From NCBI GenBank assembly GCA_009668225.1, contig WJYK01000009.1, positions 1 through 64,000 on the forward strand: 64,000 nt of DNA. The letters run 5' to 3'. Source of the stretch: Enterobacteriaceae bacterium RIT693 (GTDB lineage Bacteria; Pseudomonadota; Gammaproteobacteria; Enterobacterales; Enterobacteriaceae). Positions 4,362 through 12,039 of the stretch are shown here, in pieces. A program made the position numbers and the translations under genes. The notes under the pieces were generated by a model. That model saw nothing but the letters and a program-made list of their open reading frames with translations. It was not told where the DNA came from and made no database searches. Positions within the stretch are counted from its first letter, which is position 1. The number at the start of each line of letters is the position of its first letter.

Positions 4362-5888
4362 ATGAGTCACTCTGCGACGAAAACAAAAACATTTTTCGGG
4401 CATCCGTACCCGTTAAGTTCGCTATTCCTCACCGAAATGTGGGAACGTTTTTCCTTCTACGGGGTTCGCCCGCTGCTCATTCTGTTTATGAGTGCGGCCC
4501 TGCTTCAGGGCGGGATGGGGCTGCCGATCGAGCAGGCTTCCGCGATTGTCGGTATTTTCGCCGGCGGCGTATACATCACCTCTTTACCGGGCGGCTGGTT
4601 GGCCGATAACTGGCTTGGGCAGCGGCGAGCCGTCTGGTATGGGTCGCTTATCATTGCGCTCGGCCACCTCTCGATTGCCCTGTCGGCATTCGTGGGCAAC
4701 ACCTTCTTCTTTGTTGGCCTTCTGCTGATAGTCCTGGGTACCGGGTTGTTCAAAACCTGTATTACCGTGATGGTAGGGACGCTGTACAAAAAAGAAGATA
4801 CCCGCCGCGATGGGGGCTTCTCGCTGTTTTACATGGGCATCAACATGGGGTCGTTTATTGCCCCGCTGATCATCGGCCCGCTGCATGAGAAATACGGCTG
4901 GCACATGGGCTTTGGCCTGGGCGGGTTGGGCATGCTGATTGCCCTGTTCATCTTCCGCTTCTATGCCATTCCGCAAATGCGCCGCTACGATAAAGAAGTC
5001 GGGCTGGACTCCACCTGGAACCGCCCGACGACCGAGCGTAAAAACGTCGGTAAATGGGTAACGCTTGCGATGGTGCTGCTAGCCGGGCTGGTGGTGCTGA
5101 TCGCCAACGGGACAATTCCATTCAACCCGACGGCGATCGCCAAAAGTTCTGCGTACATTATTTCCACCTGCGTGGGCCTCTACTTCCTGTTCATGTTCTT
5201 CTTTGCCGGGCTAACCAGCAGCGAGCGTTCACGCCTGCTGGCCTGCCTGATCCTGCTGGTTGCGGCGGCATTCTTCTGGTCTGCCTTCGAGCAGAAGCCG
5301 ACCTCCTTCAACATCTTTGCGCGCGACTACACCGACCGCCAGATGGGCAGCTTTGAAATCCCGACTATTTGGTTCCAGTCGATCAACGCGCTGTTTATTA
5401 TCCTGCTGGCGCCGGTGTTTAGCTGGTTCTGGCCGTCGCTGGCTAAGCGCAATTTAAATCCGAGCAGCATGACGAAGTTCGTTATCGGCATTTTGTTTGC
5501 GGCGGCAGGTTTTGCGGTAATGATGGCGGCAGCAAACCAGGTGCTGGCGACGCAGAGCGGCGTTTCTCCGTTCTGGCTGGTGGGAAGCATCCTGCTGCTG
5601 ACGTTGGGCGAGCTTTGCCTTAGCCCGATTGGCCTGGCAACCATGACGTTGCTGGCGCCGCAGAAAATGCGCGGCCAGGTGATGGGGCTGTGGTTCTGCG
5701 CCAGCGCGCTGGGCAACCTGGCAGCCGGTATCATGGGCGGGCATATCAAAAAAGACCAGCTTAGCTCGATGCCGGAGCTGTTCTCTCACGTGTCTATCGC
5801 CCTGGTCATCTGCGCCATTGTGCTGGCCGCGCTGATTATTCCGGTGAGAAACATGCTGAGAAATGCGGACGCCAACGAAGCCAAATAA
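4362..5888 (+). CDS. POT/PTR2-family proton-dependent oligopeptide transporter
   Basis: 508 residues from the ATG at 4362, which has GGGAG seven bases upstream and gives the usual POT length. The alternative ATG at 4278 would add 28 residues encoded across a terminator hairpin and is disfavoured. The proton-coupling ExxERFxxYG motif is present as EMWERFSFYG near the N-terminus, and about 12-14 hydrophobic segments follow. Family members import di- and tripeptides across the inner membrane. It differs clearly from what I recall of DtpA and has some similarity to DtpC/DtpD-type proteins, so no symbol is given. A strong terminator follows. Confidence 0.88.
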   Translation: MSHSATKTKTFFGHPYPLSSLFLTEMWERFSFYGVRPLLILFMSAALLQGGMGLPIEQASAIVGIFAGGVYITSLPGGWLADNWLGQRRAVWYGSLIIALGHLSIALSAFVGNTFFFVGLLLIVLGTGLFKTCITVMVGTLYKKEDTRRDGGFSLFYMGINMGSFIAPLIIGPLHEKYGWHMGFGLGGLGMLIALFIFRFYAIPQMRRYDKEVGLDSTWNRPTTERKNVGKWVTLAMVLLAGLVVLIANGTIPFNPTAIAKSSAYIISTCVGLYFLFMFFFAGLTSSERSRLLACLILLVAAAFFWSAFEQKPTSFNIFARDYTDRQMGSFEIPTIWFQSINALFIILLAPVFSWFWPSLAKRNLNPSSMTKFVIGILFAAAGFAVMMAAANQVLATQSGVSPFWLVGSILLLTLGELCLSPIGLATMTLLAPQKMRGQVMGLWFCASALGNLAAGIMGGHIKKDQLSSMPELFSHVSIALVICAIVLAALIIPVRNMLRNADANEAK

Positions 5889-8801: not shown

Positions 8802-8869
8802 AGGCTACGCCTTTATTTATGGTGCAATCAAAATCATATTATTCAGCAAGAGATGAGTTAAATTCATTC

Positions 8870-9763
8870 ATGAGAAGTCGTCGACTCCCGCCGCTTGCGG
8901 CCATTCGTGCTTTTGACGCCGTGGCCCGCCACGCCAGTTTCAAAGCGGCGGCTGAAGAAATTGGCGTCACGCCTACCGCCATCAGCCACCAAATACGCCT
9001 GCTGGAAGACTCGCTTGCACAGCGATTATTCACCCGCTCAGCTCGCGGCGTTGCGCTAACCCAGGCGGGAGACATTCTGTTTCGTGCTTCCGGGAACATT
9101 TTCACCACGCTGCGGGACGCCGTTGAGTCTATTGACAGGCAATCCCTGCCCGGAACATTGACGCTCAGCACCACCTCGAATTTCCTGACTAACTGGCTGG
9201 TGCCGCGTTTGCCTGCTTTGCATCAGCGCCATCCCTCGCTGGAACTGCGCTTTCACAGCAGCGTGGCGCTGGCCGATCTCAACGGCACCATGGCGGATTG
9301 CGCCGTGCGTTACAGCATGCAGGCAGATGAATCTCTGGACAGTACGCTGCTGTATAGCGACAGGTTTGTGCTGGTGGCCAGCCCGCAGCTGAAGCTCAGG
9401 AGCGGGAAGGATCTGCAGGGGGTGACGCTCTTTCACATTGAGAACCGTCATGTACCCAGCCCGGAGCCAAGCTGGCAGCACTGGAAATCGGTATTTGGAC
9501 CTGAGGACCTGGACGTGCAGAGCGGTATTCGCTTTGACGATGAAACGCATGCTATTCAGGCGGCCATTGCAGGGCAGGGAGTATTGCTGGCCAGCGGGCT
9601 GCTGATTCGCCGTGCGCTGCAGCAGGGGCTATTGCATATCGCGCTGCCGGGCGTGCTGCCCGGGGCGAATTACTACTTTGTTAGCAGTCGCGACAAGGCC
9701 AGCAGAGAGGACGTACAGCAGGTTAAGGCGTGGCTGAAGCAGGAATTTGAGGCGAAAGAGTAG
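8870..9763 (+). CDS. LysR-family transcriptional regulator (GcvA-like)
   Basis: 297 residues from ATG 8870, where the protein begins MRSRRLPPLAAIRAFDAVAR as GcvA-type LysR proteins do; an in-frame ATG at 8819 would add 17 atypical residues. The helix-turn-helix (about residues 20-40, AAEEIGVTPTAISHQI) is intact and the remainder is a periplasmic-binding-protein-like effector domain. Divergence from the DHA2 exporter gene suggests the exporter is its target. The effector is unknown. Confidence 0.85.
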   Translation: MRSRRLPPLAAIRAFDAVARHASFKAAAEEIGVTPTAISHQIRLLEDSLAQRLFTRSARGVALTQAGDILFRASGNIFTTLRDAVESIDRQSLPGTLTLSTTSNFLTNWLVPRLPALHQRHPSLELRFHSSVALADLNGTMADCAVRYSMQADESLDSTLLYSDRFVLVASPQLKLRSGKDLQGVTLFHIENRHVPSPEPSWQHWKSVFGPEDLDVQSGIRFDDETHAIQAAIAGQGVLLASGLLIRRALQQGLLHIALPGVLPGANYYFVSSRDKASREDVQQVKAWLKQEFEAKE

Positions 9764-9786
9764 CGTTGCCCCTCACCCTTTTTTGC

Positions 9787-10440
9787 CTCTTTGTCACAAA
9801 TATCCATGATTATGCAGGACTGGTTAATATTCCGTTCACTTCCAGCCTTGTTTTATATGCAGCAGCCGCACCGGTGAACGTGTCCGGGGGATAACGCCAT
9901 CCCCCGGACAGCCCCGGCGCCCGGCGAGCTCATCGCCGCTGAAGCGGTAAACCCACCGGCTATCACCCAAACAGTCGGGGTCGTTCGCGATTCGTTCCCG
10001 ACGATCGCTCTCTTTCGCTGCTCCCGGCAGCTCAACCCCGCCTGAGTTGGGTCATCACCGGGGGCGATGAGAGCCGGGAACAAGGGCGTCGCTGTAGGGC
10101 TTACAGCAACGTTAACGTTTCGAGTAGCTGCGGGTTTAAAGCCAGGCTCGGTTCCGGCTTAAATCGCCTCCGTTTTCTCTCCGACTGGCCAGGGTCCGGA
10201 CGTCGGGAACGGCCGGAGGCTGAGAGCGTCGGGAACGCATCTCAGCCGACCCAGGACTGGGAGATAAAACGGAGGTCTGCCGCTTCAGCGGTCGATTTAT
10301 TTGGCCGGGAGTCCGGGGTCTCGGGGGAATGACGGTGATTCTCCCGAGACGTTCACCGGTTCGGGGGTGACATGTGAAGCAGGACTGGAGGTGAACGGAA
10401 CCTTAGCCGATCTTTCAGAATGATTATTTGTGACCAAGAG
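9787..10440 (+). ncRNA. Candidate large structured noncoding RNA / foldback element
   Basis: No credible protein is encoded here, yet the whole stretch is self-complementary in a nested order. Closing helices: 9787-9802 with 10425-10440 (15 of 16 pairs); 9830-9850 with 10380-10400 (long, one mismatch, two G-T wobbles); 9870-9881 with 10349-10360 (12 perfect pairs). Inside: hairpin 9881-9892/9899-9910 (12 perfect pairs); 9920-9925/10073-10078 plus 9929-9937/10063-10071; hairpin 9974-9979/9997-10002; hairpin 10091-10096/10102-10107; 10135-10143/10156-10163; 10167-10176/10266-10275 (10 perfect pairs) enclosing 10218-10225/10240-10247; hairpin 10280-10291; hairpin 10318-10330/10338-10350 (13 pairs, one wobble). 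Three of four non-Watson-Crick pairs are allowed G-U only if the plus strand is transcribed. No promoter or U-run terminator is obvious. It is not recognisable as RNase P, tmRNA, 6S, CsrB or a group II intron. A nonautonomous transposable element with long terminal inverted repeats is the main alternative. Confidence 0.65.
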
Positions 10441-10446
10441 ACAGCT

Positions 10447-10482
10447 CACTGGGAGAGGAACCATCTCTCCTAAACATCAGTG
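10447..10482. other. Hairpin at the 3' end of the emrB-like gene
   Basis: CACTG-GGAGAG ... CTCTCC ... CAGTG forms a bulged hairpin that overlaps the last codons of the leftward exporter gene. No T run follows on either strand, so termination activity is doubtful. Confidence 0.35.
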
Positions 10483-12039
10483 TGCCTGCGGCTTTTTCAT
10501 TAACGGGACCAGCATCGCGGCAATCAAAAAACCTATCATGATCAGGTAAAAAGCATCCGAAAAGGCCTGGGTTCGCGCCTCGCGTAGCGCCAGGGTAGAA
10601 AGGTTTTTTAGCGCCCCGCTGGCGGCGGCATCAGGCGATAAACCCTGCGCGGTGAGGTTAGCGGCGCTGCGCTGGACGAAATCCGTCATCGCCAGATTGG
10701 CGGTATTGAGATGGTCGGCCAGGCGGCTGTAATGCAGATTGGTTCTGTCATTCAGTACCGTGCCACACAGGGCGATGCCGATAGCCCCGCCCAGGTTACG
10801 CATCAAGTTGAACAGGCCAGAGGCAAGCTTAAGCCGCGCGGGCGGCAGACTGCCCAGCGTAAGCGTTACGGTCGGTGCGACGGCAAACTGCTGTGCAAGG
10901 CCGCGAAACGCCTGCGGAAGCAGCAGCTGATCGCCGCCCCAGTCGTGGGTGATGGGCACAAAGCTGTACATGGAAATAGCAAAGCCGATGAGCCCGGCCA
11001 TCAACAGCCAGCGCAGGTCCACGCGGTTCGCCAGCCAGGAATAAAACGGGATCGACATCACCTGGAATAGGCCGGTCGAAAATACGGCCAGGCCGATTTC
11101 CAGGGCGCTAAACCCGCGCACCGTGCCGAGGTACAGCGGCGTTAAATAGATGGTGGCGAAGATGCCTACCCCGGCCATAAACGAAAAGTAGCAGCCCAGG
11201 CTAAAGGTTCTGTCCTTCAGCGCCCGCAGATCCATCACCGGCTGGGCATGGCGCAGAGTGCGGATGATAAAAGCGATGCCGCACAGCAGCGCTATCCAGC
11301 CTGTGGTGGCGATTGTGCTGTCGTCAAACCAGCCCCAGCGCGGGCCTTCTTCCAGCGTATATTCCAGACAGCCCAGCGAAGCCGCCAGCAGCAAAATACT
11401 GAAATAGTCCGCACCGCGAAGCAGGGAGAAATCAGGGGTATCTACCTTTACCAGCAGCGGAACGGCGACGGCGATGTAAATCCCCGGGATCACGTTGATA
11501 AAGAACAGCCAGTGCCAGTTAAAGTTTTCGGTGATCCAGCCGCCAACGGTTGGGCCAAGCGTCGGTGCCAGAGAAGCAAGGCCGCCGATGGTCGCGGCGG
11601 CAATGACCCGCTGCTTACCCTGGAAAAAGGCGAAGGCGGTGGTAAACACCAGAGGGATCATTGACCCGCCCGCCAGCCCCTGCAGGGCGCGGAAAGCGAT
11701 CATACTTTGAATATTCCACGCCCAGCCGCACAGCAGGCTCATCAGCGTAAAACCTGCCGCCGAGGCGGCAAACAGCCAGCGCGTTGACATCACCCTGGAG
11801 AGCCAGCCGGACAGCGGAATAATAATGATCTCGGCGATCAGGTAGCTGGTCTGCACCCAAACGGTTTCATCATCCCCCGCTGAAAGGCCGCCGCCGATGT
11901 CCCGCAGCGAGGCGGAAACGATCTGGATATCAATCAGCGCAATAAACATCCCCACGCACATACTGGCAAACGCGAAGATCTTTTTTGCCATCGGCATAGA
12001 GATGCCCTGCGGCATCGGTGCAGCCTGGGCGTTGCTCAT
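10477..12039 (-). CDS. EmrB-like DHA2-family inner-membrane exporter
   Basis: 520 residues with about 14 transmembrane segments. The N-terminal helix containing IALIDIQIVSASL, motif A (SGWLSRVMSTRW) and motif C (LAPTLGPTVGGW) are those of the EmrB group. EmrB proteins pair with an EmrA adaptor and TolC to expel hydrophobic compounds across both membranes. Its start overlaps the stop of the emrA-like gene by four bases (ATGA), so the two are translationally coupled. Third gene of the hxlR-emrA-emrB unit. Confidence 0.9.
   Translation of the reverse strand: MSNAQAAPMPQGISMPMAKKIFAFASMCVGMFIALIDIQIVSASLRDIGGGLSAGDDETVWVQTSYLIAEIIIIPLSGWLSRVMSTRWLFAASAAGFTLMSLLCGWAWNIQSMIAFRALQGLAGGSMIPLVFTTAFAFFQGKQRVIAAATIGGLASLAPTLGPTVGGWITENFNWHWLFFINVIPGIYIAVAVPLLVKVDTPDFSLLRGADYFSILLLAASLGCLEYTLEEGPRWGWFDDSTIATTGWIALLCGIAFIIRTLRHAQPVMDLRALKDRTFSLGCYFSFMAGVGIFATIYLTPLYLGTVRGFSALEIGLAVFSTGLFQVMSIPFYSWLANRVDLRWLLMAGLIGFAISMYSFVPITHDWGGDQLLLPQAFRGLAQQFAVAPTVTLTLGSLPPARLKLASGLFNLMRNLGGAIGIALCGTVLNDRTNLHYSRLADHLNTANLAMTDFVQRSAANLTAQGLSPDAAASGALKNLSTLALREARTQAFSDAFYLIMIGFLIAAMLVPLMKKPQAH

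Follow-up and report, generated by a model that had tools for sequence, protein, structure and literature searches.

A large dispersed palindromic intergenic repeat of Cedecea and its kinship with the TwoAYGGAY motif

A LysR-family regulator gene (8819..9763, plus strand; Pfam PF03466 and PF00126) and an MFS transporter gene (10477..12039, minus strand; Pfam PF07690) converge on an intergenic region that consists mostly of nested, self-complementary sequence. An earlier note had proposed positions 9787 to 10440 as a candidate structured RNA of no recognised family, and the question raised by this locus is whether an RNA is encoded there or whether the palindrome is of another nature. Throughout, the window refers to the whole stretch of DNA analysed, 64,000 nucleotides in length.

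Anatomy, copies and genomic placement of the element

Folding of positions 9787-10440 as a plus-strand RNA (654 nt) resulted in a minimum free energy (MFE) of -372.2 kcal/mol, in comparison with -250.3 ± 6.4 kcal/mol for 20 dinucleotide shuffles (z -18.9), and the minus strand was almost equally structured (-337.1 kcal/mol, z -15.8). A repeat search independently recovered the nested inverted repeats at 9784-9807/10420-10443 (the outermost one, 24 nt, 83%), 9806-9895/10335-10424 (90 nt, 71%), 9881-9892/9899-9910 (12/12), 9936-9969/10258-10291 (74%) and 10167-10182/10260-10275 (94%). The large nested fold claimed in the earlier note was thereby borne out, and its boundaries proved nearly right, the outer inverted repeat extending 3 nt beyond each end, so that the whole element spans 9784..10443. 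The claim that the region lacks a credible protein also held: the sole open reading frame of at least 60 aa within the element is a minus-strand frame of 76 aa, for which a Pfam search returned no matches. A promoter-like site for the element was looked for and not found. With regard to Rfam, the whole 64 kb window had no match to any family at gathering score, and the sub-threshold matches to mir-25, Scr4115 and Ms_IGR-2 (search to E 5, 9700-10500) were judged to be due to chance.

The element, about 660 bp in total, contains one unit twice in inverted orientation: a module of about 155 nt together with an end hairpin. From the centre outward, it is made up of a variable centre between the modules (10078..10153), two conserved cores (9921..10077, 157 nt, minus strand, and 10154..10308, 155 nt, plus strand), outer hairpins, end modules and looser flanks. 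The outer hairpin of the left half (9881..9910) is the 12/12 inverted repeat and shows compensated variation across copies and genera; that of the right half (10319..10349) was located by sequence and hairpin comparison. The end hairpin modules (9830..9880, plus strand, and 10350..10400, inverted on the minus strand) were both identified as matches to the pattern TTCCGTTCAC-N-GTGAACG. Inspection by eye distinguished two types, A and B, of the arm inside the end module, the window copy being A-core-A and the majority of copies B-core-A with non-matching arms. The very long closing rod described in the earlier note is present, although its unusual length is partly peculiar to this copy because an A-type arm stands on both sides. 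Kissing loops between the halves (TCCCG/CGGGA) were considered and rejected, since single modules exist; this complementarity follows from the halves being inverted duplicates.

A search with positions 9770-10450 revealed at least about 40 copies in the host genome, a Cedecea, across many contigs and with the window copy included; the count is a floor, because 40 of 71 candidates were scored. The other copies in this genome were 84-94% identical to the window query. Copies were also found in all seven other Cedecea genomes tested and in 3 of 51 genomes of other genera. The locus is therefore a dispersed insertion and not a single structured-RNA locus. The earlier note had itself counted a match to a known transposable element with many dispersed copies against an RNA; of this, the dispersed copies were found. 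Exact target duplications, for which it had proposed to look, were not seen at them.

The flanking LysR protein is 83-88% identical in C. neteri, C. davisae and two records labelled 'Enterobacter sp.', the latter two belonging, by their contig coordinates, to the seven other Cedecea genomes as well. The same gene pair is present in C. neteri and C. davisae, with a short intergenic stretch that lacks the element, and the two 'Enterobacter' records carry a different insert at its site. The empty site of C. neteri carries a palindrome, CCCTCTCCC-N5-GGGAGAGGG-N3-GGGTGAGGG, that fits the consensus of TM_ECO, an intrastrand triplex motif described for E. coli in a passage of PMC4666352. This places the insertion into or beside a triplex-type site, at a junction resolution limited by one divergent pair. 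A second, similar palindrome was observed beside the triplex-fitting one (locus L058, about 4950-5060), and remnants resembling the triplex-type palindrome flank other copies too, as judged by eye.

For the alignment of Cedecea copies, 10 truncated, overlapping or odd entries were removed from 71, leaving 61; two copies from genome G007 were doubled among the 71, since loci L033 and L044 overlap. Column conservation over the 61 copies was lower in the centre (0.76-0.85) than in the cores (0.93-0.99). RNAalifold gave a weak consensus for these copies (-154 on the plus and -148 on the minus strand, with a positive covariation term), probably because the conserved parts scarcely vary and the arms are unpaired, and it was replaced by an alignment across genera. 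Ten pairs of copies presumed to occupy the same site were also compared. Both flanks were more than 80% alike in seven of them, and the remaining three offered no clean two-sided comparison. In four of the seven (L004/L099, L002/L043, L088/L101 and L015/L041), similarity of the core exceeded that of either flank; it fell between the two flanks in L008/L102 and below both of them in two further pairs, L091/L031 and the truncated L094/L054.

Some individual copies deserve mention. The flanks of L020 (G000) and L053 (G004) match by eye in opposite orientation, suggesting inversion of the core at one orthologous site, which is the outcome expected from recombination between arms. An IS110-family transposase gene at L039:2023-3042 (G034; PF01548, PF02371) follows a truncated copy, as if the IS had inserted into that copy. 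Of the 58 end modules in G179, a C. neteri genome, 31 begin no more than 83 bases from the start of a contig, which makes the elements a probable cause of breaks in draft assemblies.

Regarding placement, 27 of the 40 host-genome copies lie between convergent genes, the others between gene pairs oriented '--' (8), '++' (3) or '-+' (2). Convergent placement was also found for 48 of the 67 Cedecea entries whose flanks were read on both sides (46 of 65 minus the two doubled G007 copies), a count whose entries are not all independent, as some sites are common to several species, and for 16 of the 22 copies with both flanks in other genera. The base rate in the window is 12 convergent pairs among 61 adjacent gene pairs, or 6 among the 24 with gaps of at least 40 bp. 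Genes for these counts were called with a simple longest-ORF script, not taken from annotation. The convergent placement may reflect mere tolerance.

Distribution of the module in Enterobacteriaceae and its covarying fold

The end pattern TTCCGTTCAC-N-GTGAACG had 87 matches in the host genome and was present in 28 of 149 Enterobacteriaceae genomes, with at most 38 matches in any genome of this set other than the host; the reversed pattern, used as control, had none in the same 149. In an order-wide draw of 247 genomes, the pattern occurred in 6 of 18 Enterobacteriaceae genomes, and outside the family in 2 of 229 with one match each, vs one control match, which corresponds to chance level. Among 23 named genomes, 12 carried it, with the following numbers of end modules: C. 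neteri 58, C. davisae 21, 'Enterobacter' sp. Ag1 21 and Cy-643 22, Phytobacter ursingii 32, Ph. diazotrophicus 18, Mangrovibacter phragmitis 36, M. plantisponsor 28, two Kosakonia 4 and 6, Franconibacter 1 and Superficieibacter 1. It was absent from the tested genomes of Yersinia, Klebsiella, Citrobacter, Pantoea, Erwinia, Rahnella, Serratia and Izhakiella. Several remoter copies, whose ends read TTCCGTTCGCC and whose core has the two hairpins as well, were observed in Izhakiella australiensis (L082:7700-8882 and 1600-2700), having escaped the end-pattern search.

Many relatives carry a single half only, and inverted pairs also occur, which indicates that the unit of the family is the half. 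The two ends differ by eye in G018 (e.g., L040 and L050), with CGCTCT...AGAGCGC on the right and CGTTCAC...GTGAACG on the left, so each end may be a separate hairpin and not half of a closing stem. A direct tandem of six end modules at a spacing of about 105 bp, forming an end-hairpin array, was observed in G009 (C26:27957-28532).

When a half from G072 was used as query, 5,375 of 5,426 E. coli genomes were matched, at a median of 4 places, together with 32 records of the plasmid collection; a half from G024 matched 4,985 of the 5,426. The Cedecea copy used as query had no matches in E. coli or plasmids. No annotated feature lay under the E. coli matches among the 20 matches listed. One of the places matched by the G072 half lies between the convergent asmA and yegH genes of E. 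coli strain 4/1-1. In E. coli K-12, the asmA-yegH gap holds a partial copy devoid of GGA hairpins and the aqpZ-lysO gap a copy with both of them, whose GGA strand is antisense to both neighbours; the two K-12 copies are unannotated in the record inspected. Sub-threshold matches to naRNA4 (RF02564) were observed beside modules of G169 (L118:1428-1508 and 1775-1854) and E. coli (L218:2421-2493). A literature search, mostly at listing level, found no published description of this large dispersed repeat family.

To compare folds, 68 representatives were chosen from 253 modules by k-mer overlap, 21 of which had two TCC-loop hairpins. The rows of the resulting alignment (A1) came from this two-hairpin set plus E. 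coli and one module each from G024, G072, G169 and G174, with both closing motifs found by pattern. A1 comprised 21 alignable module cores of 149-162 nt from 17 genomes, with a mean column identity of 64%, and included the left and right cores of the window element as rows 1 and 2. Each of these window halves folds alone (both z -4.8) into the layout of a G169 half. The shared structure consisted of 53 pairs over the 21 modules, with 83.7% of cells paired in comparison with 70.5% in shuffled and 37-44% in slid controls; as its pairs were taken from the fold of a single member (G169), it has an advantage over the slid controls. Covariation, proposed in the earlier note as a check, was found: 148 cells had changed on both sides vs 52.2 ± 5.7 expected, a number that kinship among the rows can inflate, and none of 500 shuffles reached any of the five measures observed. 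In helix 8, the first GGA hairpin, 8 of 9 pairs showed changes on both sides. It has to be noted that the choice of rows favours modules keeping the closing stem, so the five closing pairs are uninformative.

Mobility, GGA loops and strand symmetry

The reading that we favour, and consider probable, is that of a palindromic repeat dispersed among intergenic regions, which consists of an ancient module in two inverted copies, spreads non-autonomously and would form a two-way hairpin cluster at 3' ends. It takes up the features demonstrated by the data: many copies, an empty site, a covarying fold, kinship with TwoAYGGAY in other genera and mostly convergent placement.

As to the means of spread, the forms of Cedecea, G026 and G096 could be a Tn5-related MITE moved by an IS4/IS50-type transposase, a possibility that we judge somewhat unlikely. 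The outer ends match the Tn5 mosaic end at up to 18 of 19 positions (L089 18/19, L159 17/19, L047 16/19 at both ends), yet many copies have poor ends, the window copy reaching 12/19 on the left (9783..9801, plus strand) and 14/19 on the right (10426..10444, minus strand). Such ends were not noticed by eye among the sequences inspected from other genera, and no exact 9-bp target duplication was seen at the copies, the best being 7/9 with shifts of up to 2. Furthermore, a Tn5-type transposase (PF02281) was found in none of the eight Cedecea genomes, with a model of uncertain sensitivity that matched none of 14 controls, and a resident Tn5 transposase partner was rejected on this ground. REPINs rely on RAYT transposases, and the REPIN/RAYT system was rejected because no Y1/RAYT transposase (PF01797) was found in any of the eight Cedecea genomes, this model having matched 5 of 14 controls.

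With respect to what the dispersed repeat carries, each of the 21 cores, when read outward, has two adjacent GGA-loop hairpins, the second assigned by eye, and the GGA of the first is invariant in all 21. In the window element, sequence, loop survey and fold located hairpins with the loop CGGGA at 9987..10008 and 10017..10031 in the left module (minus strand) and at 10195..10217 and 10218..10247 in the right module (plus strand). In the inward orientation, at least one hairpin with a TCC-type loop was present in 211 of 251 modules, and one with a GGA-type loop in 20 of 251. The loops in Cedecea are CNGGA, with variable N and constant GGA; exactly two were found in each half in 48 of the 61 copies, three in one half in 6, and one only in one half in 7. 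Most of the other genera examined have A-N-GGA as at least one loop type. In Cedecea, G026 and G096, the loop starts with C in place of A, and C-N-GGA loops also occur in G018, G059, G105, G114 and G152.

Among 119 Enterobacteriaceae genomes, matches to TwoAYGGAY (RF01731) at E 0.01 were found in 20, with up to 21 per genome, and matches above the cut-off in 9. One module (L127, from G104) reached 46.3 bits over the full model, the cut-off being 43, and other modules scored 29-40 bits, below the cut-off, on the outward strand. All seven matches in G009 lie 97-98 nt inside an end module, again on the outward strand. No RF01731 match was obtained in the window at gathering score, on 9700-10500 to E 5, or in the host genome at E 0.01.

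These loops raise the idea of a CsrA/RsmA sponge, in which dispersed 3'-end pairs of GGA hairpins, on both strands, would titrate or recruit CsrA; we regard it as rather unlikely. Two adjacent GGA-loop hairpins per module, with GGA constant and the neighbouring loop base variable, would suit such a role, as would the A-N-GGA loops of most other genera examined and the RF01731 matches above cut-off in relatives, but the C-first loops of Cedecea, G026 and G096, also present in the five other genomes named, weaken the usual CsrA site. In addition, the E. coli aqpZ-lysO copy has ACAGGGATGT and ACATGGATGT in its hairpins, close to the CsrA consensus, although its GGA strand shows in K-12 that this strand can be antisense. 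Binding of CsrA by TwoAYGGAY is itself a published prediction, made in a passage of PMC4333381.

The fold could also reflect selection on RNA of one strand, in which case G-U pairs should be kept and the mirror A-C pairs purged. In the shared structure of the 21 modules, the outward strand showed 31 G-U vs 35 A-C cells, counts that include misaligned cells (142 other). The 126 distinct outer hairpins, read on the inward strand, gave 17 G-T vs 29 A-C pairs, along with 1404 Watson-Crick and 23 other pairs. For TCC hairpins on the inward strand, the values were 4 G-T vs 3 A-C among 68 distinct ones, and 15 vs 3 among all 170, many of them near-identical copies. In comparison, 42 terminator-like hairpins in the same loci, taken as control, showed 14 G-T vs 5 A-C on the transcribed strand. 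Since G-U and A-C cells are equally rare, the pairing reveals no RNA strand, and selection on RNA of either strand lacks consistent support; the symmetry fits DNA-level pairing, reading of both strands, or templated repair. The argument from G-U pairs in the earlier note thus fails for the family, and of its candidate structured RNA the structure is upheld by fold and covariation, with RNA unproven. Of the 61 copies, 59 had their lower MFE on the plus strand (mean -16.9), but this was rejected as strand evidence: the shuffle means of the two strands differ by about as much, 16.0, so the difference is one of composition.

Such symmetry would also arise if pairing were kept by mutation, through template switching in imperfect palindromes and gene conversion among copies. 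Almost complete Watson-Crick pairing with few wobbles on either strand, the core of L091/L031 being less similar than its flanks, and the core apparently inverted, by eye, between L020 and L053 all point in this direction. We nevertheless hold this account to be distinctly unlikely, given that the multi-stem layout, the length of 149-162 nt and the invariant first GGA persist in 17 genomes at 64% identity; purely local correction is insufficient to explain such persistence of the core layout. Finally, the account first proposed, a large structured non-coding RNA made as a discrete plus-strand transcript, is very improbable: the strong fold, the covarying helices and the core identity above both flanks in four of the seven same-site pairs with flanks over 80% alike speak for it, but G-U and A-C cells are equal, the minus strand is nearly as stable, no promoter-like site was found for the element, relatives have single modules alongside inverted pairs, and arms and centre vary freely.

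Possible role at 3' ends and comparison with known systems

In the dispersed-repeat reading, the module (end hairpin, outer hairpin and a multi-stem core of 150-160 nt with two GGA-loop hairpins) would spread as a non-autonomous insertion, in the Cedecea type perhaps via the Tn5-like outer ends, and would be tolerated or kept where both neighbouring genes end. At convergent gene ends, the element would serve both directions as a cluster of 3'-end hairpins: the modules point outwards, so a transcript running on from either gene would acquire one pair of GGA-loop hairpins. Such a pair could protect the 3' end, slow the polymerase, or be bound by a protein that recognises GGA loops, for instance CsrA. 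The effect of the element would probably be on the 3' ends of convergent transcripts, and the element may offer neighbouring transcripts docking hairpins for an RNA-binding protein. A bolder proposal, which we consider quite improbable, is that TwoAYGGAY in Enterobacteriaceae would be no free-standing RNA but the payload of a family-wide palindrome, whose copies at convergent ends would place paired GGA hairpins in read-through RNA of either direction. Dozens of 3' ends would then jointly buffer CsrA as a repeat-spread sponge, and pairing would be maintained on each strand since each is read.

The kinship described here ties TwoAYGGAY, an orphan Rfam family and predicted CsrA binder, to a large dispersed repeat family, and the presence of module relatives in nearly all the E. 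coli genomes searched makes the CsrA prediction testable in K-12. In addition, the family provides a clean case for the question of whether giant palindromes are maintained by RNA selection, DNA structure or templated mutation.

Among known systems, TM_ECO is alike in that the C. neteri empty site fits its consensus, and differs in that it concerns the neighbourhood of the insertion and not the element. REP, BIME and REPIN sequences are likewise palindromic and intergenic and occur as single units and inverted pairs, but REPs are 20-40 bp long according to a passage of PMC3733652, a size far exceeded by an element of about 660 bp whose core alone is 155-157 nt. YPAL/RU-2, the Yersinia palindromic sequence, is also a dispersed intergenic repeat with, by eye, two A-N-GGA-T hairpins; as described for Yersinia in parts of PMC2759123, the description on which this comparison was based, it is about 168 bp long, about a quarter of the size. 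Its GGA hairpins (Table 1b of that paper) hint at a wider class of GGA-hairpin repeats.

The closest system is TwoAYGGAY (RF01731, clan CL00106), rated 'y' (probably) as RNA and 'n' (probably not) as cis-regulatory in the pertinent part of Weinberg et al. 2010 (PMC2864571). The window element stays below its 43-bit cut-off, and its loops are CGGGA in place of AYGGAY, though the two hairpins and the GGA are kept. The common structure is present as well, the window halves sharing their fold with 19 other modules that include the above-cut-off L127. The family was thus unrecognised, as the earlier note had it, insofar as Rfam has no match here, although the module does have a known relative. Both systems have the core layout with two adjacent GGA-loop hairpins, on the outward strand of each half in the element; the Cedecea unit differs in that it combines two inverted modules with end hairpins over about 660 bp, is present in at least about 40 copies and has CNGGA loops. 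Altogether, the element found in Cedecea is related to TwoAYGGAY but has diverged from it, and is not a member by the Rfam definition.
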